Below, one piece after another: positions 6,724 to 52,654 of a stretch of DNA of 64,000 nucleotides (position 1 is the first letter of the stretch; each line of letters begins with the position of its first letter). Made by a program: the position numbers and the translations under genes. The stretch comes from Ilex aquifolium (lineage: Eukaryota > Streptophyta > Magnoliopsida > Aquifoliales > Aquifoliaceae): assembly GCA_951799425.1 (NCBI GenBank), contig OX637392.1, positions 38,640,593-38,704,592 of the forward strand, read 5' to 3'. A model generated the notes under the pieces. The model worked only from the letters and a program-made list of their open reading frames with translations, made no database searches and was not told the origin of the DNA.

Positions 6724-6933
6724 GTTTCATCTCAATTTAAATTTTTCGTTAAATTGGCGGATGATTGAACTTGACAAAAAAGGCCAACTTAAACTCAGAG
6801 GTTGTCGATCCATCCTATATGAAGTAAAATAATAATAAAAAACTATATTCGAAAACCATATCTTCCATAATCCCCCTCCTCTCCACGTTCTCTATTTTAT
6901 TAGGGACATCTTGCACCTCCTAATTTAAAATTA
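6724..6933. other. spacer between LINE tail and MULE
   Basis: AT-rich sequence with no gene or repeat structure that I can see. Its last nine bases (6925-6933, ttaaaatta) are the left target-site duplication of the next MULE. Confidence 0.6.
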
Positions 6934-7708
6934 GGGCAAAATTCATTTTACCTCCCTATGGTATACCTCAAATGCACTTTACCTCTCTAAGATTTAAAAA
7001 TATTCACATAAGCCTCGCATGGTTTGTGGACTAAACTGCACTAGCACCAGGAAAATGACATTAATACCCTTCCCTCTATCTTCTTCTTCAACAGACTCCC
7101 AACCCCTTGATCCGGCAAAGCACCCAACCTACTGTTACGACATGAGTCATTGTTCTTCTATACCATTCCAGCCACAATCACCCATCAACCACCTCCTCCT
7201 CAAATTCAACAACCATAATTAAGAACTAAAAAGAAATTGAAAAGAATGGGAAAAAAAAGAAATTCAAGTACCATTAGATCTAAAACCAATGGATGCATAT
7301 AGTTATGGAGGTTGAAATGAAGTGAGAAAAAAATTAGGAAGAAGTTTGTATATTGTTTGCATTTGTTTATCCATGGCCCATCCCTTTTTGTTAGGTCCTC
7401 TGAAATTTAATTTGCGTGTATTCCAGTTTTTGTCTTGTTCTTGTTGTCTTTTTCTCAATTAAACAATTCAGTTAACACATTGTTTTGATTCCTCTATTTC
7501 CTAATCATTTTTTTTTATTTTGTTTCAGGTCTTGAATATGGTCATCCATCCCTGGGTGAATTGTTGTGTAGGGTGATGCAAAAAATCAAAACATTTTGTT
7601 TATGCAGCTCCGGCGAGATAATGGTCGGCAGAGAATTGAGGAAGAAGAAAGAAGATAATTCAAAAAGGTGACTGGTGTGGCTGGAGGAAGAGGATTGATC
7701 AGAGAAGA

Positions 7709-8623: not shown

Positions 8624-8908
8624 TTGGGAAGACGATGACTTATATGAGTGTTTATGAGGATATTCTTGTCATTTTATTATATTTTGTTAAAATCAACTCT
8701 CATAGTTCGTGCGTCACTTACACAATCTGTTAAAGGAAATACTATGTAACTCAAATTTTCATCTCAAATGAAGGGGGACTAAAAAGTCTGACGCTGCAGT
8801 TTAGTCCACAAACCATGCAAGGGTTATGTGGATATTTTTAAATCTTAGGGAGGTAAAGTGCATTTGGGGTACCCTAAGGAGGTAAAATGAAGTTTGTCCT
8901 TAAAATTA

Positions 8909-9182
8909 ATGTGACCAAGTAATACACGATTTTGATCTTGTTTATTTCAAATCACAATCAAACTGCAATGCTTCTTTGAAGGGGCCAATTACTCTGACCT
9001 CACTCAAGGTCTTTAGTCATGAATCCAAAACAATAAGCACCCATACAAACAATGACACAACTTGAAATAAATGGTTTGACACAAATCCGATTAAATATAA
9101 CACGAAAAAATTAGATTGGATTTATAGATGACACTAACCTGACACAAAATAAATATCATTGATTGGATATGAATTAAAAAAA
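8909..9182. other. spacer
   Basis: AT-rich sequence between the MULE and the outer TIR element. I see no gene, RNA gene or repeat in it. Confidence 0.5.
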
Positions 9183-10005
9183 GTGATAATTGGAGTCAAT
9201 CCTCTTTAGTGAACTTATAATGAGTTAAGTCCATCACTTAAACGTATTTGGTAATAAGTCCTATTATTATCTTTTTAATAAGTAGTTAAGTCCAAAAAAA
9301 TTTAGTAAGTCCAAAATGCCCTTTCTATAACATTGAAAGTAGTCTTCACGTTTAAATCAGTTTCCTAACTAGAAAAAAATTACTCCTTGATTCACGTTCA
9401 ATGGAGATATGCCAATAATTTTTTTTATCATAAAATTCAAAATTTTCATATATAATTTGATAAATTACACACAGATCCCCTGAGAATTGTCACTTAATCA
9501 GACAGACCCCCTCCGATAGAAGAAATTACACACACGCCCCTTCAAGTTTGTGCGTGTATGTCACTTAAACCCATTGTCGTTTGTATGTGTTAGAGACCGG
9601 TGAAAAATGTATTGTGCCGGCATATTATATATTCATTTTCTCCAAACTACCCTTTTTCTTTGTTGGGACCCACGCTTATTAAGATTGACTGTTGCTTCCC
9701 ATTTCCCACATGACCGTTGGACACGCCATAGTTGCCAATAATATTTTGAGAAATGCATCATTCAACATAAGTTTATAATTATTACATGCCATAAAACTAT
9801 ACCCTAGCATGTTAACGGTGGCATTCAAAACCCTAGAAAAACTATGTTTTTCATGCCAAAAAATTGTGTTACAACCCAAGAAAATTCACAAAAGAATGCC
9901 ATCCAACTATACCCCTTCACAACCAAAAACAACCAACAAAATAAAACATGCACTCCAAAGCTCATAAGCTACTGTCCAGCAAAAGATACCACGTGAACAA
10001 TACCC

Positions 10006-11755
10006 ATTCTAAAACATGGCATATTCAGACTCCACATTGCCACTAGGAGGGGTAGTTTCATTTTTCTTGCTACTATCTCCATGCTTCAAACCCTTGGTAC
10101 CACTCATTGAAGACTCATCCTTCTTGCTCATCATAGCCTCTACACCTTTCATTCCACTCTTGCCAAGGAGCTGAGATACCCTTCTTGAACCAAACATTTG
10201 TGAAAGATTTTCACCAATAGATGTCACCTGAGATGCATTTAGAAAAAGGGTATTTAATTATTTATCAGTAAATATAGCTTCAAGTATTTAAGTAATTAAC
10301 TGGTGTTACCTGAGATGCATCATTGCGATGAGCATCAGTTTCAGGTTGAGAAGATTGAGTCGAAACCTAAGAACCTCCTTCCTGTCCATTGTGAGCATTG
10401 TTAGCACAACTAGTTGCAACCTGATAACCTCCTCCCTGCCATTATTTTCACCATTAGTAGCAACCTGAGATGCTCCTCCCTACACCAGCAAATTTGACAA
10501 TCAGAAACAAAAAAATGTCAGTGGCCTACAATAGAGAAACATTTTACTGCAACCTTTCAGCACACCAGGTTGCAACTTTTTTTGAACAAATTGTAATGTT
10601 TAGCCACATAATTACTCACTTAAACTCTTGTTAAATAAGTACTACAAAATCAGGAAAATAAACATACCATTTCATCACCATTATTAGAACCATTAGTTGC
10701 ACCAACACCACTTCTTTGACCAACATTACTGCCTAACCCCACTTACAACAGAATATTTGTGGTATATTACAACAAATACTACACTTACAACAAAATATTT
10801 GTGGTATATTACAACAAATACTACAAGTATGAACTTAAAGTAAAATAAAGAAAATGTGTATTTAATTACCATTGTATTTCTTTTTTGTTTCCTCACTCTA
10901 ATTGGACCCCTCTGACAAGTCCTCTTATTATGGTCATACTCCTTGCAATTTGCACACCTAATAGTGCATCATCTCTTTGACTAAGTTGATGGGGCTGGTT
11001 CATCCACTTCTCTTCTTCTATTTTTCTTTGGCCTTCCCGAGAGCCTTCTCATTGGCGGAGGAAGAAGAGTAGATGAAATGATCCCATTAACTGGGGGACA
11101 TAAAGTTACATCCGGAATTGGGTGAATCATTTCACCATAAGCCTTGAGGTAGGCATCCTTGGAGTAAAAAGCATTGCAAAAATCCTCAATGTTTTGCCTC
11201 CTATAAGCAATGCCTATAGCAGCATGCTTACAGGGTATGCCACCAATATCTCATACCTTGCATTCACATGTCTTCTTCCCAATATCAACAATATAACTCC
11301 ACAGAACTCAAACTAACATCACTTTCAGTGTGCACACACCACCCATATTCATCACTGTAAGATAAGGCATCATCATCATTCTCATCTTGAGTCTCTTTCT
11401 CCTTAACAATACTTCTTTCATTTGAAGGGAGAGGAGCATGAGGAACTTCCTCTGCCAATGGTTGAATGAATTGAACACCATCAACATAGACATGAATCAC
11501 AGTGCTCTTGTTGTTCAACTGGAACATTTTCGCCACATCAGCATCTTCTTTTACATGTATTTTTTGCATTGACCCATGAATTCCACAACTTAGTGATATG
11601 GAACTGTTGACGTTTGAAGGAATATCTTTCAAAGCTACTTCACAAACATCATTTAACATATCAAAGAAGCAATATTCATCTGGATCAATGTTCTTCACAA
11701 TGAACTCAGTCGCTAAGTAATGAACTATCAAATCATGGACGTAAACACTCTGCAT
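10006..11755 (-). pseudogene. MuDR-type transposase, internally deleted
   Basis: The N-terminal part (11285-11755, 156 aa) begins MQSVYVHDLIVHYLATEF and carries an acidic stretch (KEKETQDENDDDALSYSDEY) like the N-terminal region of plant MuDR transposases. It runs directly into a SWIM zinc-finger region (about 11190-11284) with CEC...GGIPCKHAA, the C-x-C...C-x-H pattern. Next comes a CCHC knuckle near 10920-10960 (RCANCKEYDHNKRTCQ) and a Ser/Gly-rich tail (10009-10227, MTSIGENLSQMFGSRRVSQL). The DDE catalytic core between N-terminus and SWIM is missing, and there are stops in the SWIM and linker parts, including a TGG-to-TGA-like change just after CECK. It cannot make active transposase. Confidence 0.8.
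10744..10830. repeat. 43-bp tandem duplication
   Basis: Two adjacent copies of cttacaacaraatatttgtg...aaatactaca lie within the degenerate MULE transposase region. Confidence 0.8.
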
Positions 11756-11764
11756 CCTACAAGT

Positions 11765-12130
11765 AAAACATAAACTGTGAATGTGTGGTAATACCTAAAA
11801 ACAGTTCATTACTGTGACTATGTGGCAATACCTAAAAACATAATATATTGTGGTGTGTGTGCACTGTGAATGTGTGGCAATACCTAAAAATAGAAAACAT
11901 ATAACCCATAAAAATACAGAAAAACAACAAACCATAACAAAATCAGGATCACATAAACACAAAAAAACGAAGCCACAAAAAAAACACAAAAAAAAAATCA
12001 TAACAAAATAAGATCACATAAACACAGAAAAACAAAAAAAAAATACCATAACAAAATCAGGATCACATAAGCACAGAAGAAAGTTGCTACAAGAAAAACA
12101 CAAAAAAATAAATAAACCAAGAAAACACAT
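11765..12130. repeat. short tandem repeats in the MULE 5' region
   Basis: Two repeat types lie upstream of the transposase start. At 11776-11900 ctgtgaatgtgtggcaatac units occur three times. At 11935-12110 units built on cataacaaaatcaggatcac and acataaacacag occur about three times. They occupy the expected promoter or 5'UTR side of the minus-strand gene. Confidence 0.65.
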
Positions 12131-14444
12131 AAAAACATAGAAATCATGATCATTCAGCTTACTGAAGCATCACAGAAACCACTAATGATACAGACGCCCT
12201 CAGAAATAACTTCATTTATTCGAGAACAAACCCTAATCACAAATATTTTTGAATTAGTTTGTTTTACTTCAATACAGCTAGCCTCTATTTTAACGTATAT
12301 TAGATATGAAAAACCCCCCAAATTTATTTCAAACAAACCATATTTTTGTTCAAAAAAAAAAAACCTAATCAAATGTTATTCATTCGTAAAAAACGAACAA
12401 TAAATCTCATAATAACGTTTTCAGTCGATGACCTAGCCTCAAACATGACATGCAAACAACTCTTGAAGTATAACCAAAACCCTAACCTATTGTACGGACC
12501 TTCACCACGATGTAGGCTTCACTCTCAAGTTTCTTCACTACCAGCAACAACTTCAGATATCAGCAGTAACGGTTGAGGATGAAATCATGTCATGTTTCAC
12601 TTTCAGTCGATGAACTCATGTCATATTTCACTCTCAGTGGATGAATTTAGAGGTATCAAATGCTTCACTCTCTATTTTGTTCATAGTGATGTACTCATGA
12701 TCTTCGGATGAGGATGAAAATCTGATGAGAGAGAGAGAAAGAAAGAGAAAAAAAAGATGAAGAGCGGGATACTAAGGACTCTCCCGCCTTTTGTTCTGCG
12801 GTGTGGAGCAATAGGGGCCTTTTAGTAAAGGCATCAAATCTTGTAACGCCCCAAATACCACCCTGGATGGCATTACATTCTAAAACATTCACATCATGAG
12901 AGCATTAAATATCATCCATAAATAAATTAAACTTCATTCATCATCCATAAAATATTTACATCATTATCCAAAAGAATATGCCCAACCATGGCATTTACAT
13001 CTCAAAAATCCAATAATGTAGCGCAGCGGAATTACAAAAGAAAACTAGACTTTACAAGGTTCCAAATGAATAACCTAGTCTAGTACAAAAGAAGCTATAT
13101 CTCTAGTTGTCCCATTCGGGATCTAAGTACCCCTCCAAGGAAGCTTCCCCAAGGCCCGGCTCATTCACACCGAGCTCTTCCTCTAAAGCCAAATCTGAAA
13201 AATGTAATTTGTAGGGGATGAGCACGAAGCTCTGTAGCAAAATCTTCCCAAACTCAAACAAGGTTTATGAAAACATATAAAATGGCCGGTCACATTTTGC
13301 AAATAGCATACATAATCTTTGAAGTAAAACAGGGACATTTTAAAATGGATCTCAAGTTTAAGTAGCAACAGTAATTTACATAAACAGTAAAAGAAACCAA
13401 GATCCAATCAATATCCATTTTCCAAAATATATAAACCATTTTCCCACAAGACCTTGTGGAATCCCATACTTCCACAAGTCCTTGTAGGAAACCATTTCCC
13501 ACAATAATACACAATCCATCAATATGTATATGTATCTCAAACATGATGTAAGGCAAACCCCATGAATCGACACGTTGAGTAATATCTAACCCACACACAC
13601 CCACACAAATCTTATCAAAGATATTCATCATTTAGGAAGGGCGTATGCCACACCAATGGCAGTGACGTATCCAACCCAGGCATTAGTATACTAACCCTCT
13701 TACACGGCACCACGTGAGCAATAGCGGTTTAGTCTTACCAAAGCACTAACCCCACTACGAGTGGTAGGAGAAATGCCAACCCACACGGAGCAAGCAACAC
13801 GTCTACCCACTCAACGATATCTCGTCAAAGGCCACCCATGGTCATCCCACACTCATAAGAGATACAATACCAAATCCAATTCCAAAATTTACAATTATAT
13901 CTTCAAAATCCCCAAATTGAGCATTTGACATTTTCAATAACCAACCAAGAAAAATGCAAGAGATCACAACAATATCATTTTATTACTCAACACAAAACAC
14001 TATAGTTTTGAAATCAAGAATCAAGGAAGAGTTCAAGAGGAAAACCCATCACTCTTGAAAACTAGGGTTTTTTAAACCAAAAAAGGGATTTGTGTAAAAC
14101 ATTTTAACAATTGAACAAGAACCAAGAAACAATGGAACCATAGCAAATACATATCATTAAGAATCAAAACATACATATTTATTAACCCTAACATCAATGT
14201 AAGAGAAAGAGAAGAAATCCCCTACCTTGATGTTCTTGGAAATCTAGGGCTTGGATCTTGAATCACCCTTAAATTCCTTGTTTTTCATCTTTGATCTTGT
14301 GTTTTTCTCTTCCCCTCTTTCTCTCTAATGTTTTCTAGGGTTTTAAGGCGTGTAATGAAGGCTAAGGGGATGGCAAGAAGTATTTATAGTGGGGGAAAAA
14401 CCGGCTGTTCGCGACTTAAATACATCATGAGAGCACTAATATCA

Positions 14445-16644
14445 CCCTGGACGACATTACATACTAAAACCATATACATCATGAGAGCACTAATATCATC
14501 CATAAATAAATTACACTTCATTCATCATCCATAAAATATTTACATCATTATCCAAAAGAATATGTCATCTTTGGCCTTTACATTTCAAAAATTAATCCAA
14601 GTTGCACAGCGGAATAAACAAAAGGAACTAGACTACACAATGTTCCAAAAGAATGTCCTAGTCTAGTACAAAAGGAAAAGAGGTCGCTCTAAGCGTCCAC
14701 CTCGGGATCCACACTCCCGTCTAGCGGAGTCTCCCAAGTAGCGGGCTCCTCGACCCCTACGTCCTCCTCTTGTAGGAAATCTGAAAAATGTTAGCAGCAG
14801 GGGATGAGCACGAAGCTCTGTAGCAAAATCTTCCCAAACTCAAACAAGGTTTAGAAAAGCATATAAAACGGTTGGTCTCATTTTCACAAATAGCATATAT
14901 AACATTTGAAGTAAAACCAGGACATTTGAATAGATCTCAAGTTTAAGGAACAATAGTAATTGAATGAATAAGTGAAACCAGTATACAGTTAACAAACTAT
15001 ATCCAAATATAACCCATTCTACCATAAACCGTTTCCAACAAGTTCTCTCGGAATCCCATACTTCCGGAAACTCTTGTCGAAACCATTTCCGGTACAATGC
15101 ACGATAACCCCCAATGTATATCCGACACTACCCACGTTACTATTCCGTCATCATTAGTGCTAGGAAATGTTCGTACCCACACGGCGTACAAAGACGTCTA
15201 CCCACACTATGTGGTAGGAAAAGTTCATACCCGCGTGGCATACAAAGCCGTCTACCCACTACATGACACCCGGTCAATAGTAAACCATGTTAGCATCGTA
15301 CAACTACGCAAGAGATACTATACCGACAAACACCTCACCTTCCCAACAATTACACAATTCCCCCAATTTACACGCCATATCCAAGAAAAATCCCCAATTC
15401 TCATAAGTTGTGGTACAAGAGTAATACAATAAAATGTACAAGAGATCATCATAAATAGCATTTTGTTGTTCACTATGAAACACTAACGTTTTGAAATCGA
15501 GAACATAGGAGGAATCAAAAGAAAAACCCCTTTCTCTTGAAACCTAGGGTTTTAAGATGAGAAAAAGGATTTAATGGTTATTCCACCATATATTTGTTTA
15601 AAACTTGATAATCATTGCAAGGATGTCAAGAATCAAGTAAATACTAGCAAGTATATACGGTTTTGAAACAAAAGAGTACATATAATTTAACCCTAACATC
15701 AATGTAAGAGAATAGGAAGAAATCCCCTACCTCAACCAAGTATCTCTAGCAACCCAAGCTTTAATGACTCCCCTTTTCCCTTTTTTTTTCTTGTTCCCTT
15801 GCTACTTTCTCTTTCGGTTCTAAGAGGTTTGAGTGAAAGTGAAGTGAAATTATAGTAGAGGGAATGGGTGGAGAAGTGGGTTCTTGAAAAACTAGGGTTT
15901 GATTTTGTTCAAGGTGTAAATCTCTCTTGATTTTATGTTTTTCTCTTCCTCTCTTCCTCTCTAATGGTTTCTAGGGTTTCAATTGGTGTAATGAGGCTTA
16001 GAGAGGTGTAAGGATGTATTTATAGTCAAAGAAATGGAGAAAGAACCGAAGCCGGGTCGGGCTAGGCTTTGCCGGGCGTACCGGTACGCGTACCGGTACG
16101 GTTGAGCTACTGGAGTTCGGCGTACCGGTACGGTTCGACTGCCAGATTTTTGCTCTAACTTCTAGTGCAGTTTTGACCCATTTAGAGGTCGAATTGGAAA
16201 ATTTTCATGAGATACACTTTTGTAGCCCTAGATGTCTACTATCTACTGTAAAAATTTAAGACCAATTGGACTTAAGGATAAAAAGTTATGGCCGAAATAC
16301 TAAGCAGTGTCCAAAATCTTAAATTCCCAAATTTTCTCTACAATGTGTTTTAACTCCAAAATACTTCCTAACTTCGAATACACCTCATATTACCTCTCCC
16401 AAGGTTTCTCGACCTTCCGGACTCAATGGAAACCTTATTTTGACCTAAAAACCTTTAGAAACTTGTCTATTCATCCTTTCCAAGTTTAAACATCTTCGAC
16501 ACGTAACTTCCCAATCAAATTGTCTCCATAGCATTTATTCCTACGGTTTATTCTTATGTCACTACATATATCTACATCTTTACTAATATTATTTACTATA
16601 TATATATCTCTATAAATATATAAAAGAAAATTCAGGGTGTTACA
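14445..16644 (-). repeat. 3' LTR of the young chromovirus
   Basis: It ends gggtgttaca at 16644, next to the polypurine tract. It is near-identical to 19851-22050, including identical 111-, 85-, 64- and 60-codon open frames that are shadows and not genes. It carries three copies of the palindrome cgtaccggtacg at about 16077-16135. Confidence 0.9.
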
Positions 16645-16660
16645 ATCCACCTCCCTTAAA
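16645..16660 (-). other. polypurine tract
   Basis: On the minus strand the sequence reads ctttaagggaggtggat directly before the LTR start tgtaacaccc. This is the expected plus-strand priming site of the element. Confidence 0.75.
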
Positions 16661-16685
16661 GAAAGTTTCGTCCTCGAAACTTACC

Positions 16686-17273
16686 TCAAGTAGCGAACAA
16701 ATATGGATACTTCTCCCGCATTTCTTGCTCCGGTTCCCATGTAGCTTCTTCCACCCCATGATGTCGCCACAAAACCTTCACGAGTCGGATGACTTTGTTG
16801 CGGAGTACCTTTTCCTTGGCATCAAGAATCTCCACCGGTTGTTCTTCATATGTTGCTCCATCTTGAATTTCAATATCCTCCAAATCCACGACTGGAGTTG
16901 CATCCGATTGACACTTCCTCAACATCGACACGTGAAACACGCCTTGTACTCCGGATAACTGAGCTGGTAATCGCAACTGATACGCCGCTTTGCCCACCAC
17001 TTTGATCACTTCAAACGGTCTGGTATATCTTGGCACTAACTTCTCATTCTTGCCGAATCGAAACACGCCCTTCTTTTGTGACCCCTTGGGAAACATGTAA
17101 TCTCCCACTTTAAATTCCACGGATCTTCGTCTGTGGCCCGCATAGCTCTTCTGTTCTACTTTGCGCCGTGCGTAGCCTCTCCCGGATGAGTTGAATCTTG
17201 TCCGTAGTTTCCCCATTGTATTCCTTACTCCGTTAGTTCGCTGCGCACTCTGATATAAATTACAATCTACCAA
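16686..17273 (-). pseudogene. integrase C-terminus with chromodomain (chromovirus)
   Basis: A 195-codon open frame. Its middle matches the integrase C-terminal region of plant chromoviruses: VEFKVGDYMFPK, then FRFGKNEKLVPRYTRPFEV and YQLRLPAQLSGVQGVFHVSM. It ends in a chromodomain-like segment with VLWRHHGVEEATWEPEQEM. The chromodomain is thought to steer integration toward heterochromatin. The N-terminal residues do not look like integrase. Because only the end of pol is present, this is a fossil fragment. Confidence 0.85.
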
Positions 17274-17279
17274 AGGTTA

Positions 17280-18660
17280 CAGTTGAAACCTAACCCGACT
17301 TGTCCTCCCATTTTAGCTTCCAAATCCATATACATTTTTCCAACGAAATAATTTAAGAAAAATTAACATAATATCATCGAAAATACCATTTTATTGGTCA
17401 ATACCAATCGTTAGAATTTTGAATTAAGGAACAAATAAATAATCAAGCTTTGGAATCAAAAATAAATGGCTATCAAGCTTGGAAATCAAGAACAAAAGAA
17501 CAAGCAAGGTTTGAAATTAATAACAAACGAATCTCAAGTTTTTGGAATCCATAGTAAAGGAACAATCAAATCTTGAATTCCATAACAAACCCATATCAAG
17601 CTTTGGAATCCAAATAAGAAACAATCAAAGCTTGAAATCAAGAACAAAGTAACATTCGAATCTTGGAGTTTATAATCAGGAACTAATAAGTCTCAAGTTT
17701 CGAACTCAAAAACGAAGAGTAATCAAGTATTGAAATCAAGAGCAATTGATTGTCAAGTCTTGAAATCAAGAACCAATGAATATCAAGAATAAATGAATCA
17801 CAAGGTTTAGAATCAATAACAGATGAATATTAAATTTGGATCCCAAGAGCAAATGAATATTAAGCTTGAAAATCAAGAATAAAGGCGTATCAAGCTTGAA
17901 AGTAATGAACAAAGGAGAAATTAAGATTTAGCGGAACAATCATGTATGGAAGTCAATAACAAACGACTATCAAGGTGTGAAATCAAGAACAAATGATTTA
18001 TGAAGCTTAGAAATCAAGACCAAAAGAAAACTCAAGTCTTGGAACCAAGAATAAAGAATATCACGTATTGAATATTGAGAATAATTGAATCACAATGGTT
18101 ATAGTCACTACCAAGTGCATATCAAATTTAGATATCAAGAACACATGAATATTGAGCTTAGAAATCAAGAACAAAGGAACAATCACTTCTTGAAATCCAT
18201 AACAACGAATATCAAGCTTAGAATTAAAAAAATAAGGAACAATCAGGTATTGAAATCAACAACAAACAAATGGATCATCAAATTTAGATACCAAGAACAA
18301 ATGGATTATTAAGCTTAGGAAATTAAGGACAAGGAAACAATTAAGTCTCGAGATCAATAACAACGGATATCAATCTTGGAATCAGAGATAAAGTAATAAT
18401 CATATATTGGAATCGATAACAAACGACTATCAAGGCTTGAAATAAATGACAAAGGCAAGATAAAGAGAAAACACCTCTCCCTTGAAAACTAGGATTTCAA
18501 GGTCATACCAAAAGGATTTGGTGGTCACCCACCCATAACCTAGCTTAGAACAAATAACATTTAAGTTCGGGAATCAAGAGCAAAGGAGAAATCAAGAGAA
18601 AAACACATCTCCTTTGTAAACTAGGGTTTGAAGGCATAAGAAAAGATTTAGAGTTTACCC
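17280..18660. repeat. degenerate ATCAAG-type repeat spacer inside the young chromovirus
   Basis: About 1.4 kb of A-rich sequence made of loose units around 30-45 bp built on words such as gaaatcaagaacaaatgaat and atcaagcttggaatcaagaa. It resembles no retrotransposon protein and lies between the gag part and the integrase C-terminus. The 75-codon frame at 18085-18312 is a by-product of the repeat. Confidence 0.8.
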
Positions 18661-18674
18661 AACCCTAATATATT

Positions 18675-19720
18675 TTAGAACAAGGTAATATTAACAAGAA
18701 TGACAAGACATGATGATTTCCTAACAAGTAGATATAAATTAGAGTCAAAGATTACATATAAATAGACCCTACTGGTATCTCCTTGTTTTCCCGTAGGCAA
18801 GTTAACATACAAGGCATGTTCTAGCTCCTCGGAACCCAATCCCAATTCCACAGCGTCCGCAGTACGTATAAAAGAATGAGTCACATAGGAATCCAATAAA
18901 ATTCGGGCCCAAGAATGGTAGAGAAGAACAATACCTTCCATGATGGCGTTGGAGGCATTTTCCTCCGGTTGAGTCATAGCAAAAACCCTTCCTTGATTGG
19001 CGCCGCCGGGGGCATGAGCTTGTAACGGTCTCTGTGGTGGTAATGGCTGTCATAGCGGTGGCCTGTTTGCATTCACTCGCCCCGTTGCTTGGTTGGTCTT
19101 GGTGGAAAGCAATGGACAATTATCTTTGAAGTGCCCAACACCTCCACAGGCAAAGCATCGGCGTGCATCCGTTCCTACCCTCTCTGGTACGCTTCCCGCT
19201 CCTTGAGCTATCTGAGGTCTCTGCTGTGTTGGCCTTTGTAGAGGTGGCTTGTTTGTTGGTACTTGCTCGGTTGCTTGCTTGGTCCTTGGGGGAAACGAGG
19301 GGCATCTATGTTTGAAGTGTCCATACTCTCCGCATGCAAAGCATTGGCGCGGGTCATTGCTTGTTCTAGTCTGAGTCACTTCATCTTCTTGAACTATCTG
19401 AGGTCTTTGTCCAATCACGTCCACGTCCACGTCCACGTACACGTCCACGTTCAAGTTCACGTCCTCGTTCACGTCCACCGACACGTACACGTCCACGTCC
19501 TCGTTCTCGTCCACGGACACATACTTGTATTCTCGAATTCAGAGTGTGACCCTCTTCTCGCGAATGGAAGGCCTCAAATCTTGTTCAAAGCGTTTAGCCA
19601 TCTTTGCATCAGGGGCCACAAAATCGATTGCGTAGCAAGAAAATTCATCGAATTCGAACAAATAATTAACCCCTAACCTAAATAAACAACTAATCTTACC
19701 TATTTGATAAACACATAACC
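18675..19720 (-). pseudogene. gag C-terminal part with two zinc knuckles (chromovirus)
   Basis: The best frame (19050-19520) carries two CCHC knuckles, CFACGEYGHFKHRC and CFACGGVGHFKDNC, separated by a Gln/Pro/Thr-rich linker. Upstream of the knuckles, 19415-19500 is a run of cacgtc/cacgta units that reads Arg-Gly-rich in another frame, as in Tekay/Del Gag. A short piece (18675-18977) resembles the aspartic-protease start (ILLDSYVTHSFIRTA). It is a fossil. Confidence 0.75.
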
Positions 19721-19814
19721 ACAAACAAATTCAAGCCTAAAGTTTCTTCAACCTAGTCCTACCTTTCTAGTGGTAATCCATAACCTACAGCTCCCATGTA
19801 AGACCTAAAGCCTA

Positions 19815-19831
19815 GGCTCTGATACCAAATC
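19815..19831 (-). other. chromovirus primer-binding site
   Basis: The plus strand ggctctgatacca reads tggtatcagagcc on the minus strand, the complement of the initiator tRNA-Met 3' end. It lies directly inside the 5' LTR. Confidence 0.85.
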
Positions 19832-22050
19832 TGTAACGCCCCAAATACCACCCTGGACGACATTACATACTAAAACCATATACATCATGAGAGCACTAAT
19901 ATCATCCATAAATAAATTACACTTCATTCATCATCCATAAAATATTTACATCATTATCCAAAAGAATATGTCATCTTTGGCCTTTACATTTCAAAAATTA
20001 ATCCAAGTTGCACAGCGGAATAAACAAAAGGAACTAGACTACACAATGTTCCAAAAGAATGTCCTAGTCTAGTACAAAAGGAAAAGAGGTCGCTCTAAGC
20101 GTCCACCTCGGGATCCACACTCCCGTCTAGCGGAGTCTCCCAAGTAGCGGGCTCCTCGACCCCTACGTCCTCCTCTTGTAGGAAATCTGAAAAATGTTAG
20201 CAGCAGGGGATGAGCACGAAGCTCTGTAGCAAAATCTTCCCAAACTCAAACAAGGTTTAGAAAAGCATATAAAACGGTTGGTCTCATTTTCACAAATAGC
20301 ATATATAACATTTGAAGTAAAACCAGGACATTTGAATAGATCTCAAGTTTAAGGAACAATAGTAATTGAATGAATAAGTGAAACCAGTATACAGTTAACA
20401 AACTATATCCAAATATAACCCATTCTACCATAAACCGTTTCCAACAAGTTCTCTCGGAATCCCATACTTCCGGAAACTCTTGTCGAAACCATTTCCGGTA
20501 CAATGCACGATAACCCCCAATGTATATCCGACACTACCCACGTTACTATTCCGTCATCATTAGTGCTAGGAAATGTTCGTACCCACACGGCGTACAAAGA
20601 CGTCTACCCACACTATGTGGTAGGAAAAGTTCATACCCGCGTGGCATACAAAGCCGTCTACCCACTACATGACACCCGGTCAATAGTAAACCATGTTAGC
20701 ATCGTACAACTACGCAAGAGATACTATACCGACAAACACCTCACCTTCCCAACAATTACACAATTCCCCCAATTTACACGCCATATCCAAGAAAAATCCC
20801 CAATTCTCATAAGTTGTGGTACAAGAGTAATACAATAAAATGTACAAGAGATCATCATAAATAGCATTTTGTTGTTCACTATGAAACACTAACGTTTTGA
20901 AATCGAGAACATAGGAGGAATCAAAAGAAAAACCCCTTTCTCTTGAAACCTAGGGTTTTAAGATGAGAAAAAGGATTTAATGGTTATTCCACCATATATT
21001 TGTTTAAAACTTGATAATCATTGCAAGGATGTCAAGAATCAAGTAAATACTAGCAAGTATATACGGTTTTGAAACAAAAGAGTACATATAATTTAACCCT
21101 AACATCAATGTAAGAGAATAGGAAGAAATCCCCTACCTCAACCAAGTATCTCTAGCAACCCAAGCTTTAATGACTCCCCTTTTCCCTTTTTTTTTCTTGT
21201 TCCCTTGCTACTTTCTCTTTCGGTTCTAAGAGGTTTGAGTGAAAGTGAAGTGAAATTATAGTAGAGGGAATGGGTGGAGAAGTGGGTTCTTGAAAAACTA
21301 GGGTTTGATTTTGTTCAAGGTGTAAATCTCTCTTGATTTTATGTTTTTCTCTTCCTCTCTTCCTCTCTAATGGTTTCTAGGGTTTCAATTGGTGTAATGA
21401 GGCTTAGAGAGGTGTAAGGATGTATTTATAGTCAAAGAAATGGAGAAAGAACCGAAGCCGGGTCGGGCTAGGCTTTGCCGGGCGTACCGGTACGCGTACC
21501 GGTACGGTTGAGCTACTGGAGTTCGGCGTACCGGTACTGTTCGACTGCCAGATTTTTGCTCCAACTTCTAGTGCAGTTTTGACCCATTTAGAGGTCGAAT
21601 TGAAAAATTTTCATGAGATACACTTTTGTAGCCCTAGATGTCTACTATCTACTGTAAAAATTTAAGACCAATTGGACTTAAGGATAAAAAGTTATGGCCG
21701 AAATACTAAGCAGTGTCCAAAATCTTAAATTCCCAAATTTTCTCTACAATGTGTTTTAACTCCAAAATACTTCCTAACTTCGAATACACCTCATATTACC
21801 TCTCCCAAGGTTTCTCGACCTTCCGGACTCAATGGAAACCTTATTTTGACCTAAAAACCTTTAGAAACTTGTCTATTCATCCTTTCCAAGTTTAAACATC
21901 TTCGACACGTAACTTCCCAATCAAATTGTCTCCATAGCATTTATTCCTACGGTTTATTCTTATGTCACTACATATATCTACATCTTTACTAATATTATTT
22001 ACTATATATATATCTCTATAAATATATAAAAGAAAATTCAGGGTGTTACA
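19832..22050 (-). repeat. 5' LTR of the young chromovirus
   Basis: This 2,219-bp LTR runs from tgtaacgcccc at 19832 to gggtgttaca at 22050 and is therefore bounded by TG/CA. It is the near-identical partner of 14445-16644. It holds three cgtaccggtacg-like palindromes (about 21483-21540). Confidence 0.9.
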
Positions 22051-22200
22051 ACCCAGTACCGGTACAAGGAACCTTCTGGAATTGGGGTACCGGTACTCAG
22101 TACCGGTACCATTCAGTACCGGTACCCAGTACCGGTACAAGGAACCTTCTGGAATTGGGGTACCGGTACTCAGTACCGGTACCCAGTACCGGTACCATTT
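22051..22200. repeat. cluster of GTACCGGTAC palindromes
   Basis: In the right piece of the solo LTR, eight copies of the 10-bp palindrome gtaccggtac or one-base variants occur within 150 bp. A 73-bp tandem duplication accounts for part of this: cccagtaccggtacaagg at 22052 and again at 22125. Confidence 0.85.
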
Positions 22201-22618
22201 ACCCAGTTTTGCCTATTTCTTTTGTTTTCCATTTCCAATCCATTCCAATCTCTTCCAAATCCATCTCAAACCTCTCCAACATATATTTCTACCTCAAATC
22301 CATTTAGTACAAGTTCTAGGACATAAAATTTCATATTTTCACATACTAAAACTAAATTTCAAATATTATTTCCTCGAGTTATACTATATCAAGCTTTTTA
22401 CAACTATTATTTAGTAGATATCTATATACATATATAAACGAAAATGCGGGGTGTTACAAATCTAGAAAATATCTTGGGCCTTTTTGACATCTGCCACTTT
22501 CCGTTTGCTCCGTTAGCAAAACGTCAATGACATGGGGTTCATGTGTAATTTCATATACTTGAAGGACTCTGTCTGATTAAGTGACAAACCTCAAAGGATT
22601 TGAATGTAATTTAACCTA

Positions 22619-22680
22619 TCTATACTACTAATAAAAGTACACTATCAAGAAAAACTTTTGATTGACTACTTTAACCCTAA
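22619..22680 (+). mobile_element. Helitron-like 5' terminus
   Basis: The text TCTATACTACTAATAAAAGT after an A, followed by tttgattgactactttaacc, resembles the 5' ends of plant Helitrons, which begin TC and insert between A and T. I found no convincing 3' end (hairpin plus CTRRT), so neither the length nor the identity is proven. Confidence 0.4.
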
Positions 22681-23929
22681 AATAATATATAAAGACAATA
22701 CTAGCCTTATTTAATTTAGAACTAATATTAATAAGACTTGATTGATGTTAAATTTTTAATTGGACAACTTTACTCTCACAATACTAACATTATTAATATG
22801 GAATTCATATCAATAAAACTTCATTAATATTACACATATCCAAGCCTTTCATATTCTTTCTTTTAAAAGACAAATATTAATTGTTAAAATAATTAAATTT
22901 ACTTTTATTTATGTCTATTTATTTTCATTAGTTGATGACAAGTTCTTGAATTTTCAAATGAAATTGCATAAATGCACTAGAGTCTTATTTAGTATAATAT
23001 TTATTTTAATATAATTTAGATAATATTATCAAACCATAACTTTTCATTTATTTCTCTTTTATGTTTTAGTTTTAATAAATCTTCTTTAGTTATGTTTATT
23101 GGCAATACTAGAAACCATTTTATTTGTATCAATTAACAATGCTATGAATATGTTTAGTCTCACATTAAATTTACTTATCACAACTTACCTTTTTAAATTT
23201 GTTTAATCAATTGTTTATAATTAAATGATCACCATAACTTAAAATATTTCGCTTCCATATTTTTCATAATTTAATAAGTTTATGCGATACTTTTTAGTTA
23301 TATATGCCTACATGCTATAAAATATATTTGTACAATTACTATGATGTTGTAAATAAAATTAAACGCCGGACCATAGCTGACGAAAATCACTGTCTCACTA
23401 TTGCCTATTTCCTTCTAAATGACTTTCCACTTTTGCTAGTTAGCTTTCTCTGATTGTATATGCAGCAAAGCCTTTCTCATCTCTCTCTCCTATTACTATC
23501 AGAACCCTTATTCACTATGGTAGATTCTTGCCGGATGGCCGTTCCTTCATTAACGCTATACTCCATCTCAGGGCTGAACTCACCATCAGATAGTGACTCC
23601 TCTTTGTTTATCCTTTGGGTACTGTAATTTTTTTTTTAATTTGGCTTGAACAAAGAATTATGGATGTTGCGGTTGGTGTAAGCATTAATGTTTGTGGCTT
23701 AGATGACGAAAGATCAATCTTATTGTTGCTTTTTGTTTGTGATCCTAATTGTGCGCTGTAACTGATAGGGCCAAATTCACAGTTGACTCGTGTGTTTCTG
23801 CCGAATGACACGACGGTGCACCTATGGTTTTACTCTCAAACCATATGTTTTTGTCGTAGAAACTACGTTGGTGCCTTTTACTGCATTTATTCTTTCTTGC
23901 AACCAGGCCTATCAATGGATTGAGTTTGG
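22681..23929. other. AT-rich region without recognisable gene
   Basis: I see no gene here. It may be the body of the Helitron-like element that starts at 22619. The part at 23370-23830 is less AT-rich and could be a captured fragment, but I recognise no protein in it. Confidence 0.4.
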
Positions 23930-24380
23930 ATAGGATTTTTAATGTTACTATTTTCTGTTTTGGGTTTGAATGTTACTATTTATGTTTGAATGCATCATCA
24001 GTTGTCCATGTTGCTTAAAAATGCTCAGTGTGTTACTGGTTTGTTCAACGTTTTATATTACTACTTTTTTTAGTGAGTATATTATTATTTTCTCGTCTAT
24101 GCATCATCAGCTGCCCATGTTGATTAAAAATGCTCAGTGTGTTACTGGTTTGACCCCTCATTTTGTTCAATTTTTCATGTTACTACTTTTTTTGTTGAGC
24201 ATGTTTCTGTTTCTTGCCTATACATTATCAACTATCCATGTTGCTAATCGTTCTCTGGTTAATATTCAATGTTACTATTTTTGTGCTTTGAATGTTAATA
24301 TTGAATGTTACTATTTTTTTATTTTATTTTTTCTAAAATGTTAATATTCAATGTTACTATTTTTTGTGGTTGAATGTTAC
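23930..24380 (+). repeat. GTTACTATTTTT array with roughly 110-bp tandem units
   Basis: Words gttactattttt and aatgttactattt recur about ten times. Within the block a longer unit starting gcatcatcagttgtccatg (23992) repeats at 24101 and, more diverged, at 24222. The reverse-complement form of the same words makes an array at 29160-29480 on the other side of the LINE. Confidence 0.75.
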
Positions 24381-24387
24381 TATTATT

Positions 24388-24394
24388 ATATATA

Positions 24395-24446
<52 letters not shown>
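24388..24446. repeat. compound microsatellite (TA)n(TG)n(CG)n(TG)n(AG)n
   Basis: Simple dinucleotide runs follow each other directly with only a few breaks. Confidence 0.95.
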
Positions 24447-24447
<1 letters not shown>

Positions 24448-25247
24448 AAGAATTTTAATGTTACTAAAACTCCTAAATTTTTTTTTTAATTAAATATAAC
24501 TACTGGAGGTATTTTTGGACAACAAAAATTAAAATAGATTTATTTTAATAAAATTTTTGAGTGGACTTAAGACCAAATAAATCTAAAAAAGTAGACCGCC
24601 TTCAAATTTCTCTTAAAAAAATTTAGGAAAATTTGGAGGTCAGTCCCCCTATATGGACTTATTTGGACTTAAGTCCTCCAAAAAAACTTATTTGTTATGA
24701 AGTCCAATTTTTTGTCAATTTTTATCAGACTATCCATTCCCTTTAAAAGTGAAGTAAAACTAAAAATTAAAAACTCCTATATCTTAGAAGTTTGACTAAT
24801 ATTAAAAAAAATTCTCTCTACGGATCACTATTAATACTCCCTCACCCAGAAATTATACCACACCCTTTTGCCAATAAAACCAACACCTCAATCCATTCCA
24901 ACCTTGCAGTACCTAAGCAAAATGCAGAAGATACTATCAAACATTTGCAGAGAAGGAAAATACATAGATTCACCTCCACAAAATCCCTTTCAAGAACTTC
25001 AAAATCAGCTTCAGGTAACCTACTTCATGAAATCCAAGTGGTTGAAAACACAGTGGAACTGTCTATGGCTGAGGAGGAGGGCCTTACCATGCCCCCACTC
25101 CCCTCATGATCTGATATATCTAGAACTGTCGAGGGTTAGCCCAGACCTCAACAGTTCGTCATTTAAGGGCTCAAATAAGAGAAGTCCATCCAGACTTCGT
25201 ATTCTTGTCAGAAACAAAAAATTGGGTAAGAAAAGGCTAGCAGAATA

Positions 25248-25826
25248 TTGAGAAGTTTGGGTTTCTATAACTTTGAAATCCAAGAATCTAATGGGCTTTC
25301 AGGAGGTATATATTTATGTTGGCACAAAGGAGTGGATATTGAAATCATTGTGTCCAACAAATCCATTATTTCGGCACTTGTTCTATCAGATAGCCCAGGC
25401 CCCACTTGGTTGCTTAGCTGTATTTATGCCCCCCCACCAAATAGGCGTCTCCAATGCAAACTTTGGGAATCCATTTCCCAGATTAATGATGATTTCCAAG
25501 GACCTGCGATCTTCGTAGGATATTTTAACAATGTTACCTCACAGCAAGAGAAAAAAGGGGGGAAACCATTTGCATCCACCTCTAGTGGAGGTTTTGTAAC
25601 ATTCCTGAATGAGCAAGGTCTCATAGACCTAGGTTTTAAAGGAAACCCCTTCACTTGGTCAAACAAGAGAGATGGTTTGGCAAATATCAAAGAGCGATTG
25701 GATAGAGGCATTGTGAACATAGACTGGAGATTGTTGTTCCTAAGAGCTACAATAAAACACTTACAAGCCATTGAATCAGACCACAACCCTTTGCTATACC
25801 TATGGGGACTGGGTCACATTCTCTAA
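25248..25826 (+). pseudogene. LINE endonuclease domain remnant
   Basis: A 192-codon frame matches the APE-type endonuclease of plant LINEs: SLGFYNFEIQESNGLSGGIY, LSCIYAPP and, near the end, ESDHNPLLY. The position that is normally GDFN reads GYFNN, so the catalytic Asp is lost. The domain start (WNC...) lies in another frame around 25030-25090, showing at least one frameshift. Confidence 0.8.
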
Positions 25827-26256
25827 GCCGTTCAAGTTTGAAGCAATCTGGACCAGAGATGAGACAAGTCATCTGATAATCAAGAACTCAAGGAACACAA
25901 ATCAAAATGGCTCTATCGTTTTCAAGTTCTATACGAAAATGCAAGCCACAACGACAGCACTCGGGAAATGGAATAGAGAAAAATTCAGAAATTGTTTCAA
26001 GAAGATCAAATATCTAAAGATGCGCATTGACACTCTCCAAGTTGCTGATCCAACTCCCGATAACCTACTGATATTGCAATCAAAACTTGCGGAGCAGCTC
26101 AAAAGGGAAGAAGCAATCCGGAGGCAAAGGTCAAGGATACAATAGCTCAAGGAAGGAAACAGATGCACAAAGTTCTTCCACAATACCACTGTGATCAGGG
26201 GGTGCAAGATTTCTATCGATTGTCTGAAATTGGAGAATGGAAACTAAACAACATAA

Positions 26257-27915
26257 ATGTCTGAAATTGGTAATCAATTCTCGCTTTACTTCCAATCTCT
26301 CTTCTCTTCCACGAACCCCCAATTCCCAGAAGACCTAGATCAGCTGTTCCCTCCAATTATTAATTCAGACCAATATCCAAACCTATGTGCCATCCCAACT
26401 CATGAAGAGATAAAATCAACCTTGTTTGCTATGCCCCCATTAAAGTCACCTAGCCCTGATGACATGTCCACTATCTTTTATAAGACCTACTGGCATACCG
26501 TCGGAACTGATATCATCAATGTAGTGAAAAACTTCTTTGCAGGAGGACACATGCTTAGGGAACTAAATAAGACCAATATTTGCTTGATACCCAAATCCAA
26601 TAGTCCCTCCATAGTCCACCACTATAGGCCTATAAGTTTATGCAATGTGGCTTACAAAGTAATATCCAAAATTCTTAAAAATTGACTACGGCCCTACCTA
26701 GGCAAGTTTATCTCCCTCCCACAAAAAGTCTTCATTCCTAGAAGAAACATTGCAGAAAATGTAGTCCTTGCTCAAGAGGTAGTACACCAGCTCAAGGAAA
26801 AAAAAGGGAAAGGAGCACTGATGATCCTAAAAATTGACATGTCTAAAGCCTTCGATAAGGTGGAATGGTGATTCCTTCTTCAAATTCTATCCTTATTAGG
26901 CTTCCCTCCCCAATTCATTCATCTCATTGAGCAATGCATCACAACCCCAACTTTTTCCATCCTTGTTATTGGAGGCCCAATTGGTAACTTCTCATCACAG
27001 AGGGGCTTAAGACAAAAGGACCCCCTATCCCCTTTCCTTTTTACAATTTGCTCAAAAGCTCTTTCACGACTGCTCACAAAGAAAGCCATGGTGGGCAACA
27101 TAAAAGGAATTAAAATTGCTAGACACTATGATCCTCTTACACGTTTAATGTTTGCAGATGACCTCCTTATCTTTGGCAGAGCTAATGCAGGTGAAGTTGA
27201 ATCAATAGTAGAATGCCTTTCAACCTATGAAAGATGGCCAGAACAGCTTATCAATAAAGACAAATCCATGATTCATTACAGTGCCAATGCAAACAGACAA
27301 GTGGTAAGCACAGTTAATACTATATTGGGGCTTCGGAAAGCAAATAACAACATAAAGTATTTGGGTCTTCCATTTATTGGTTCGAGATCAAGGCGCACAG
27401 CTTTTCAATCCATTGTGGAGAGATTAGATGCCAAGTTACAAGGATGGAAAGCAAAGCTATTGTCATATGCGAGAAGAGCCACATTGATCAAATCCACAGC
27501 CCTAGCAATGCCAACATACGCAATGCAAGCCTTTCTCATGCCCAAGACCACATGACATACCATAGATAGTAAGATCAGGGCCTTCTGGTGGGGACATAAT
27601 GAAGACAAAAGGTCAATGTGCATCAAATCTTGGGACTATATCTCCAGGCCAAAAATGGTGGGAGGATTGGGCTTTAGACGGACTTATGATATGAATGTGG
27701 CCCTCATGGCCAAATTGGGATGGCAGATGGTCTCGCAACAGTCTAAATTATGGACATCACAATTGGAGCGAAAATATTGCTCTAGATATTCTTTCTTGCA
27801 AGTGGAAAAACACTCAACAAACTCCCCAATCAAGAAGCCAATTCTGGACTGCAGACCAGCAATTGAAAAGGGCGCATGCTACATCGTTGGGAAAGGACAT
27901 AAAATTAACATCTAG
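26257..27915 (+). pseudogene. LINE reverse transcriptase remnant
   Basis: RT motifs are spread over consecutive open frames. They include the thumb-side KYLGLPFIGSRSRR and the downstream WGHNEDKRSMCIKSWDYISRP that follows RT in plant LINEs. The FADD active site is intact, but stop codons and a G-to-K change in GLRQ-DPLSP show that the copy is dead. Confidence 0.85.
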
Positions 27916-28583
27916 ACAGACCCATGGGTCCCCAACATACCTGGATTCATACCTCAGTTGGAGTAGGAAGTGGAGGAAATGGCATCCACAGTGGCAGAGT
28001 TGGTAAATCATGAAAATCATTCTTGGAACTACTCCAAACTTTTTTTGGAGAACAAACCATTGCGGCAATCATGAAGATCAAATTGTCCCCCTTTTAGATG
28101 GAAGACTATATGGCGTGGATCTGTACAACTTCTGGAACATTCAATACAAAATATGCTTACTCAACACTAAGAGGAAACAAGGATGCAGACTGTCATTATC
28201 TCACTAAAGCATATTGGATCAAATTCTGGAACATCCCATTACACGAAAGACACAAAATGATGTTATGGAGAGTTGTCACCGAGAGTCTTCCAACAAAAAG
28301 CACCCTGGCAAGCAGATTCATCATGCCTGACCCACTATGCCCCCTCTATCAGCAGGCCACTGAAACAGAAATTCATTTATTCTTTCACTACCCCATTGCT
28401 CGTATGATCTGGTTTATTAAGTGGGGTTTTCGTACAGAGCCTTTCACTCATTTCAACATCCAAGATTAGATCCATAATCTTCTAAATCCTTCACTCATTT
28501 TTGGTCCCTGCAGTCCACACCAAAATCAACTACTCTCCTTAACAGCATCAACTATATCAACAATCAAGAAGTGGAGGAATAAA

Positions 28584-29168
28584 TTGACCTCTGCTAAAGC
28601 AAAACTAGACCACACACTAATCATTAATGAAGCCATTCAGGTTTTTGATGAATTTCAGTGTGCAAAATCCAAGATTCCAAAGATTGCTGAGGCTTTGCCA
28701 GAAAGTCACAAGTTGGAAGGTTGGTTCAGGCCATTAGAGGGAGGAATACAGATCAATTTCGATGCAGTAATAGGGAAAAAAGGATTCTGCCTGGCAGCAA
28801 TCGCAAGAGATGAGTGGGGGGAAGTACTAGAAGCTACAGTGTTGCAAGACAATGAGGTAGACCCTACAATTGCAGAAGCAATGTCTGCTAGACAAGCAAC
28901 TTTATGGGCTAAGTCAAAAGAATGGTGCTATGTTACCCTAGGAGACTCCCAAAAAGTAGTATTTGCAGCAACTTTTCCACATGTCAAAGTTTCATGGACC
29001 ATTGCCACGGTTATTTCAGATATAAAACACCTCCTATCGCAACATCTGGATTGGGAAATGACTCATGCTTACAGGGATTCGAACAAAGCTGCTCATACCT
29101 TGGCTAAATGGGGACTTGCTACACAATACACAGGCTCCTTGAGTGCAAATGATCAACCGCAAAAATAG
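28584..29168 (+). pseudogene. LINE RNase H domain
   Basis: A 194-codon open frame with the type I RNase H pattern: INFDAVIGKKGF (first Asp), AEAMSARQATLWA (Glu), LGDSQKVV (Asp) and RDSNKAAHTLAKWG (final His/Asp region). This C-terminal RNase H is common in plant L1 LINEs. It is the best-preserved domain of this copy, but upstream frames are broken. Confidence 0.85.
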
Positions 29169-29480
29169 TAACATTCAATATTAATATTTTAAAGAAATAA
29201 CAATAGTAACATATTCAACAAAAATAGTAACATGTTCAACAAAAAATAGTAACATGTTTAACAAAAAACAGTAACATACTTAACAAAAACAGTAACATGC
29301 TCAACAAAAAAAATGTAATATGGAACATTGAACAAAATTGAAAATAAAAATAGTAAGGAAGAAGCCCCCAATTTTCAGCATCCAAAAAAGTAACAGTGAA
29401 AAAGTAATAACATGCTCAATAAAAAATAGTAACATGTAAAAAAAATAGTGATATGTATTAGTAAATTACGTTTTGAAATT
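29160..29480 (-). repeat. AATAGTAACATGTTCAAC array
   Basis: About ten units of aaaaatagtaacatgttcaa, which is the reverse complement of the words in the array at 23930-24380. It begins right at the LINE stop codon. Confidence 0.8.
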
Positions 29481-29729
29481 GATGTTACTATACTAACATC
29501 AAGTACTTGGCGTGCACTGTCCATGTTATTTTTTCAAAATCTCGAGCTTGTACTCCAGCTTCAACCTTCATTCCTTTCAAATTAGCCTCAAATTTCAAAA
29601 GTCGATTATTTAAATATATAACAGACAAAATAATGACTAAGAATTTGAATTTGAAGTATTATAGAAAGCTTGTAATCGACAATTATCATCGTAAATCAAG
29701 CATTCTTATATTCAATCATTGGCCTCCAT

Positions 29730-31297
29730 CACTATAAGAAAAATATTTTTTAGCGGCAAAACAAGTCATCACTAAAAGTGAATAATTTGCCGCTAAAAGT
29801 TTTCTGCAACAAAAAAACTTGGTCGCCAATTTGTCGCGGTAGGCTTGCCACTGAAAATTTTTGACGACCAACTAAAGTATCTTCGCTAAAGTAGATTATC
29901 AGTGATAAAAAACTTAGTCGCTTAAAAATTCATCTACTTGTCACAAAAAAACCTTCGTTGCCGAAAGAAATTATATTATGGTCATATTTTTTCTCTTTGG
30001 TGATGACATAATATTTGTCGCTGAAAATCAAGGTATATTTTTTGCGACTAACATATTTTCGACGCCAGATAACAAATGAACAAATTTTATAAACGGGTAA
30101 CACGACACGACTCATTTAACCCGTTTAATTTTAAAAAAATTATATCAACAAATTTTAATACTCCACTTTTCTTACTCCACTTTTTTTACTGTCAACTATA
30201 CTTACCTAAAAAAATAGGAATTTCTAGTCAAATCTCACATAAAAATCAAACTTTAAGGTTAAAAAAAAAAAAGTCAAGAGGCCACTGCCTTTTATAGGCA
30301 AGTCAGCTCTCCCCATCTCACCTCATTTGTCGATGTGGGACAAAAACAAAAGACATTGGTTTGCTTTTATCTTTGAACTGCTCCTCATCTCCCTATCTCC
30401 CCTTTTTTATCTTTGAACTACTGCTTTACTTTTTTTTGTATTGATTTATTTACATCTTTTTTCTGGCTAATTTTTTAAAATAATTATTAATTTATTATTA
30501 TATTAATTTTATTTTAACGAGTAAACGTGTGATAAACAGTTTAACAGGTCTCACCCAAACACGACCAGTTTATTAAACGTGTTTGATGGGTCAACCCGTT
30601 TATCACTCAAACTCGTTAAGATTTCACCCAAATCCGCTTAATTCGTGTCAGTTAATCGTGTCGTGTCAAATTTTGACAGACCTACTCATCGTCAAACAAA
30701 ATCATTTCTAAAGTGTAACATTTTATGATTACTAATGTCCTTGTAACAAATCAAAATAAATTCACTGTAGTGCTTCAATCATTGAAGATCATTATAATAC
30801 TTTTTGGCAACGAAACGTAATATTTGTCGTAGAATGTCTTTTTTTTGCGACAATTTTTCTTACACATTGCAAAAAGTCGCAGTAAAACGTTTTTTTTATA
30901 GTGATATTCTGCGACCAAATATAAATTGTCCCCAAACAAAAAAAAAATTAACTTTTTTTTCTGCGACAAACATGTATTGTCGCTAAGTATTATTATTTTT
31001 GTTTTTTTATTTTTCATTATTTGACAAAAATTTTGAGACCAAAAAATTATTTTGGCGACAATTTTTTTTGTCGCCCATAAAATTAGCATTTAGCGCCAAC
31101 ATTGGTGCCAATTTCTTTTTTGAGGGAACGTTTTTGCGAAGACTATTGGCGACGACTACAAAAAATGGTCGCCAAAAATATCATAAAAAAGTTTAACACA
31201 ATAAACATTTGAAATTGTCGCCGAAAATCATTTTTTTACAACAAATTTTATTGTTCGTCGCCAAAACTCATTGCTAAAAATCAAATTTGTTGTAGTG
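29730..31297. mobile_element. non-autonomous CACTA element
   Basis: It starts CACTATAAGAAAAATATTTT and ends ...caaatttgttgtagtg, so both ends show the CACTA terminus. It is flanked by a perfect 3-bp duplication cat (29727-29729 and 31298-31300), as expected for the superfamily. Subterminal regions hold many GGCGAC/GTCGC and ttgtcgc words in both orientations, which are likely transposase-binding repeats. No transposase is encoded. A further degraded fragment lies at about 30080-30690. Confidence 0.92.
30080..30690. mobile_element. hAT-like fragment nested in the CACTA element
   Basis: The sequence is rich in acacgacacg and aacccgtttaat words and ends gtgtcgtgtcaaattttgac, close to the ends of plant hAT-type elements such as the one at 52019-52629. 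The left end is not preserved well enough to define. Confidence 0.5.
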
Positions 31298-31503
31298 CAT
31301 ATATAGCTCCTTGTAGATAATGTTTTCAACTTTCCATAATTGACCAAAATAACACTGTTAAGAGTATTTTTTAGATTAAAAAAAAAAAAGTGGACTTAAC
31401 TTCTTACTAATAAGATTAAAAACAGACTTACCTCCAAATATGTTTCTTTGACGGATTCAAATCATTATAAGTCCATGTAAGATAACTCAGCTCCAATTTT
31501 CAC

Positions 31504-31705
31504 AAAAATTTAATATGACATGACATAGAAGAGCCAGTGACTAACCTAAACAGCACCAGTAATGGCTAGCAGGGGAACGAATATGGGCCTAGCGTTAATT
31601 GAGGATTGGAGGGAACTGAATGGGCTGGCTAACTTGTCATCCTCAATTTGCTACATTTTTGGGGCCAATCAAAATTGCACTTGATCCAGAAAACAAGTTT
31701 GCCAT
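31504..31705. other. spacer
   Basis: Short unique-looking sequence between the outer TIR arm and the next hAT-like element; nothing recognised. Confidence 0.5.
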
Positions 31706-52629: not shown

Positions 52630-52654
52630 ATATTAATACCCCAAATTTAATAGG

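Follow-up and report, generated by a model that had tools for sequence, protein, structure and literature searches.

Two adjacent Mutator-like elements, each with its own nested insertions, in a four-level transposon nest of Ilex aquifolium

Transposable elements of several classes lie inside one another in 22 kb of the Ilex aquifolium genome, and the question that this locus raises is which element holds which, and in what order they came. We analyzed the locus within a window of 64,000 nucleotides (G000:C2:38640593-38704592, forward strand), which was compared with itself and with the genome it comes from (800 Mb, 103 contigs). The original prediction, made from the sequence of the window, was that a single outer element with terminal inverted repeats (TIRs), spanning 9183-31503, had taken in a Mutator-like element (MULE), a LINE and a CACTA element. 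Our analysis gives a different picture: we are highly confident that the locus consists of two adjacent Mutator-like elements, here called X and Y, each carrying its own nested insertions as set out below (Table 1). Since X and Y are two adjacent elements, the insertion tree has two roots. The predicted depth of four levels is retained, with X, and not the 9183-31503 unit, as level 1: X contains the MULE, the MULE contains a solo LTR (A), and the solo LTR contains a young LTR element (B).

Table 1. Coordinates of the elements and target-site duplications (TSDs) at the locus, as positions in the window.
Feature	Position	Strand	Remarks
TSD of X, left copy	9174..9182	.	TTAAAAAAA
Element X, Mutator-like	9183..24612	+	9-bp TSD, long TIRs; ends common to the C16 copy, L023 and L028; X sequence visible at 9183-9457 and 23363-24612
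MULE in X	9458..22616	.	Family ends GGGTAAATTACAC...GTAATTTACCC; left 9-mer TATATAATT (9449-9457)
TSD of solo LTR A, left copy	12837..12841	.	AATCT
Solo LTR A, split	12842..22458	-	12842 to ~14419 and 22051-22458
Filler, 25 bp	14420..14444	.	Identical to LTR 19880-19904; replaces the left end of element B
Young LTR element B	14445..22050	-	3' LTR to 16644; internal region 16645-19831; 5' LTR 19832-22050
TSD of solo LTR A, right copy	22459..22463	.	AATCT
Helitron-like repeat, 5' fragment	22619..23362	+	Follows the MULE end, with TA between; lacks the 3' part
TSD of X, right copy	24613..24621	.	TTAAAAAAA
TSD of Y, left copy	24617..24625	.	AAAAATTTA; five A overlap with the TSD of X
Element Y, Mutator-like	24626..31503	+	9-bp TSD, long TIRs; Y sequence visible at 24626-24819, 29161-29729 and 31301-31503
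LINE fragment	24820..29160	+	RVT_1, zf-RVT, RVT_3; 3' truncated, 5' probably too
CACTA-type element	29730..31297	+	TSD CAT at 29727-29729 and 31298-31300
TSD of Y, right copy	31504..31512	.	AAAAATTTA

A single outer element, host to the MULE, the LINE and the CACTA element alike, would account for the outermost arms (9183-9294 and 31391-31503), which form an inverted pair with 74% identity over 113 bp in the self-comparison of the window. However, the 9-mers flanking 9183 and 31503 agree at only 4/9 positions. The ends pair perfectly in another way: 9183 with 24612 (9/9, TTAAAAAAA) and 24626 with 31503 (9/9, AAAAATTTA), the remaining pairing also giving 4/9; both 9-mers are simple sequences, with 17 and 8 occurrences in the window, respectively. 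From these pairings it follows that the LINE and the CACTA element lie outside the element that holds the MULE: both sit in Y, and the MULE in X. Two further results speak against a single element. In copies elsewhere in the genome X ends at 24612 and Y starts at 24626, and in the top 40 genome matches per outer arm, no two places, one from each arm, lie within 20 kb of each other. We thus consider the single outer element very improbable. A search of this genome with the joined outer flanks, as they would read at an empty site, revealed no such site; it returned the two halves of the window itself and one 41-base match only. On contig C5, a left-type arm is present at both ends of a 4.2-kb stretch (flanks 5/9), so the arm types are not strictly end-specific.

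The ends of Y were examined in 19 fetched copies of the right-arm family (L030-L048). In 15 of them the left end could be placed, at a distance of 0.9-1.2 kb from the right end, and the 13 of these that were aligned have 82-89% identity to all or part of window 24626-24819. For the count of duplications, two look-alikes (L039 and L040, both 9/9) were left out. In the 13 copies kept, the flanking 9-mers were identical in eight, and 11 had no more than one mismatch in the nine bases; the exceptions were L032 (4/9) and L047 (5/9). Of 156 pairs formed across elements, none were identical and one reached 8 of 9 bases. In copies of the left-arm family, in turn, a right end lies at the base equivalent to window 24612. 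By eye, one X copy (L023) has ATTATTTTA on both sides (9/9), and two others (L028 and the copy on C16) have flanking 9-mers that agree at 8/9 positions each. Two X copies, L006 and L016, agree also in what follows X on its right, and may be duplicates of each other.

X and Y, with related TIRs of ~110 bp, would thus have inserted side by side into one A/T-rich site, the ancestral form of which may have been ...gaaTTAAAAAAATTTAatatg... Their duplications overlap in TTAAAAAAATTTA, and for this reason the order of the two insertions cannot be read from them: either order yields the same sequence. We see an even chance that Y came second, into the right duplication of X, rather than X second beside Y. 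A later arrival of Y fits the overlapping duplications, and the ends of Y adjoin or lie inside other Y copies at two loci (L030 and L043); against this, the reverse order would leave an identical sequence. Two other repeats were seen near these elements: an inverted repeat just left of X (6933-7040 and 8795-8900, 108 bp, 90%), perhaps another TIR element, and, at window 52116-52630, another dispersed repeat, which is 81-83% identical to sequence downstream of the X copy on C16.

The MULE inside X has inverted arms (9461-9532 and 22542-22613, 79% in the self-comparison). Its right end was correctly predicted at 22616, whereas its left end, predicted at 9460, lies at 9458 according to the ends of the family. 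By eye, family copies have an exact 9-bp TSD in 8 of 11 cases; the others show 8/9 (C8), 7/9 (C9) or are off by an indel (C3b). In the window the right duplication is incomplete: TA alone follows the right end, the left 9-mer being TATATAATT. Among eight X copies compared here, four (L006, L011, L013 and L016) follow the window up to and including 9457 and continue without the MULE; three (L014, L015 and L020) stop matching before 9457, and L017 diverges at 9460. As far as sequence can tell, these paralogues without the insert support that the MULE is an insertion into X, into which it would have jumped. Four single ORF pieces of the MULE had no Pfam match at E up to 10. One ORF piece on the minus strand, with the letter X at its stop, matched a SWIM zinc finger (Pfam, E 2e-07), and no DDE core was found among the MULE ORF pieces searched.

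The interrupted right duplication of the MULE is followed by a Helitron-like repeat starting with TCTATACTACTAATAAAAG, which has 42 other scored matches at 89-96% identity. Helitrons insert at A^T targets, with their 5' TC end next to the A, and have a 3' end with a hairpin and CTRR. Here, A precedes the 5' TC end in 5 of 6 sequences (two of the six come from one locus). All five of the other sequences still continue where the window has already changed back to X sequence, so that the window copy is truncated on its 3' side; we call it "Helitron-like" because the 3' part with the hairpin and the CTRR end is missing in the window. The C16 copy of X matches again at window 23368 after ~250 bp that are absent from the window. 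The Helitron-like element would have jumped into the right duplication of the MULE, later losing its 3' end together with ~250 bp of X. This order is favoured because the TA and insertion at A^T fit. An earlier arrival of the Helitron-like piece, before the MULE, was considered and not favoured: the nine bases after the MULE end (TATCTATAC) differ from the nine before it (TATATAATT). At another locus (L054, G000:C18:17504230-17506030), a Helitron-like copy lies right behind a MULE-type end, with a second copy in tandem after it.

The next level is a solo LTR in the MULE, predicted with an AATCT duplication. In the sequence, this 5-bp TSD is indeed found on both sides of an LTR with TG...CA ends at 12842-22458, and the LTR has no internal region. 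Of 46 matches to the joined MULE flanks (two of them the window's own halves), 20 span the site, and it is uninterrupted in all seven fetched MULE copies, which read AATCA (4/7) or GTTCA (3/7) there. Paralogues without the insert again support, at the level of sequence, that solo LTR A is an insertion into the MULE: an LTR retrotransposon would have entered the MULE, and recombination between its LTRs would then have left the solo LTR.

The innermost element, B, was predicted to be a young chromovirus. Its youth is borne out by its LTR pair (14438-16649 and 19844-22055, 99.8% in the self-comparison), with 3 differences in ~2,200 bp; two of the five differences listed, at 14442 in the filler and at 16646 past the end of the LTR, are not counted here. 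Since 14420-14444 is identical to 19880-19904, the left terminus of B and its TSD are gone, and they would have been lost during repair, with 25 bp of LTR copied in as filler. TGGTATCAGAGCC adjoins the 5' LTR and is presumably the primer site. In Pfam searches B matched zf-CCHC, RVP_2 and SH3_Tf2-1 (E 7.8e-20), and beside the last a Chromo domain (E 0.00067, 20.0 bits, under the 25.1 cut-off). Of 18 ORF pieces from the repeat-filled middle, the 7 longest were searched and gave no reverse transcriptase, RNase H or integrase core; one of them had a weak CAP160 match (E 0.063, under the cut-off). The protease and integrase-tail ORFs have only 1.4 kb between them. The assignment to chromoviruses is therefore sustained by an integrase tail, a sub-threshold chromodomain and a protease, but not by a polymerase core in the pieces searched. 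Copies were compared over the junction between the integrase tail and the repeat array (query 17150-17470): all of the 40 matches scored, out of 2,497 first-look candidates, cover it at 97-100% identity, so the junction is a family trait. We infer that a very young element of chromovirus type, without detectable polymerase core, jumped into a solo LTR of its own LTR family. We judge it an evenly balanced matter whether B represents a recently and strongly amplified chromovirus-type family without polymerase core, which retains, around a repeat array, a gag zinc knuckle, a protease and an integrase-tail/chromodomain ORF, and which multiplies locally too, in head-to-tail arrays with shared LTRs.

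On contig C20 (G000:C20:6361516-6399547), eight matches to the internal region of B are 5,381-5,394 bp apart, the unit in the window being 5,406 bp; this spacing resembles a head-to-tail array sharing LTRs. Pairs of internal-region matches 5.2-5.4 kb apart were also seen on C7, C10, C16 and C17.

Y has its own insertions. The predicted LINE was confirmed by its domains (RVT_1, zf-RVT and RVT_3, found with Pfam). Around it, Y sequence stops at 24819 and resumes at ~29161; judging from coordinates, Y copies that keep this stretch have 130-229 bp between the equivalent positions; in L036, L042 and L043 the interval is shorter. Two LINE copies elsewhere run 148 and 158 bases further, to an A run, and a third extends upstream of the window LINE start into non-Y sequence; the 5' end of the window LINE is probably truncated. 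We looked for an A-rich 3' tail and a TSD at the window LINE, and saw none. Joins between LINE and Y were absent elsewhere (0/39 and 0/47 matches carry both sides), one repeat match among the 47 reaching 12 bases into the LINE side. The LINE would have entered Y and later lost its 3' end with adjoining Y sequence. Alternatively, the fragment could have been copied into Y by break repair or gap filling and not by target-primed reverse transcription, which would suit the lack of tail and TSD, the 3' end ~150-160 bp short of the A run in two copies, the 130-229 bp of Y that are missing, and a 3-base overlap at the right join (29161-29163); a normal insertion followed by one deletion across the 3' end, however, accounts for the same facts, and we find copying by repair rather unlikely.

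The CACTA element of Y, predicted with a "cat" duplication, has CACTA...TAGTG ends and CAT on both sides as its 3-bp TSD, and starts one base after the predicted coordinate, at 29730. The window copy has no ORF of 120 aa or more. Its site is uninterrupted in all 19 Y copies, with CAT in 15, and its ends recur elsewhere: of 67 non-self matches, 27 have the left end at query 28-31 and 31 have the right end at 1595-1601. Here too, paralogues without the insert support that the CACTA element is an insertion into Y, which would have received it separately. The CACTA interior at 30085-30686 also matches two places (on C1 and C14) without CACTA ends, so an older repeat may have become part of the CACTA family and been amplified along with it.

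Taken level by level, the predicted inner chain of MULE, solo LTR and young element is backed by TSDs and by paralogues without the inserts, except that its innermost step is without TSD. That the duplications give the insertion order is likewise true of the inner chain and of the CACTA element, but not of X relative to Y, nor of the innermost step, where the TSD is lost. The original prediction had not included the Helitron-like fragment, the loss of the LINE 3' end or that of the left end of element B.

Each step would have been ordinary cut-and-paste, rolling-circle or reverse-transcription activity of the element's own class, with no joint machine. X, Y and the inner MULE resemble Mutator-like elements in their 9-bp TSDs and long TIRs, and the inner MULE also in its SWIM piece; unlike in MULEs, no visible sequence of X or Y is known to code; their assignment comes from TSDs and TIRs. 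Nested insertions of up to 8 layers are described for wheat chromosome 3B (PMC4290129), and the two cases are alike in that elements of different classes have inserted in one another; we see no difference in kind, the present locus stacking 4 layers within 15 kb, next to a second small cluster. Coffea TR-GAG elements are non-autonomous chromoviruses with gag and without pol, thought to be moved in trans (PMC5818461). Element B is likewise an LTR element with a gag zinc knuckle in which no pol core was found, but it still has a protease piece, separated by a repeat array from an integrase-tail/chromodomain ORF. With nests known in wheat 3B and chromoviruses without pol in Coffea, the locus adds one more case to a known kind. 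There is nothing unusual in it as a nest, and the corrected insertion tree is the result: a worked case in which two neighbouring elements with related inverted ends were mistaken for one large element, and in which internal ends, duplications and paralogues without the insert together corrected the tree.
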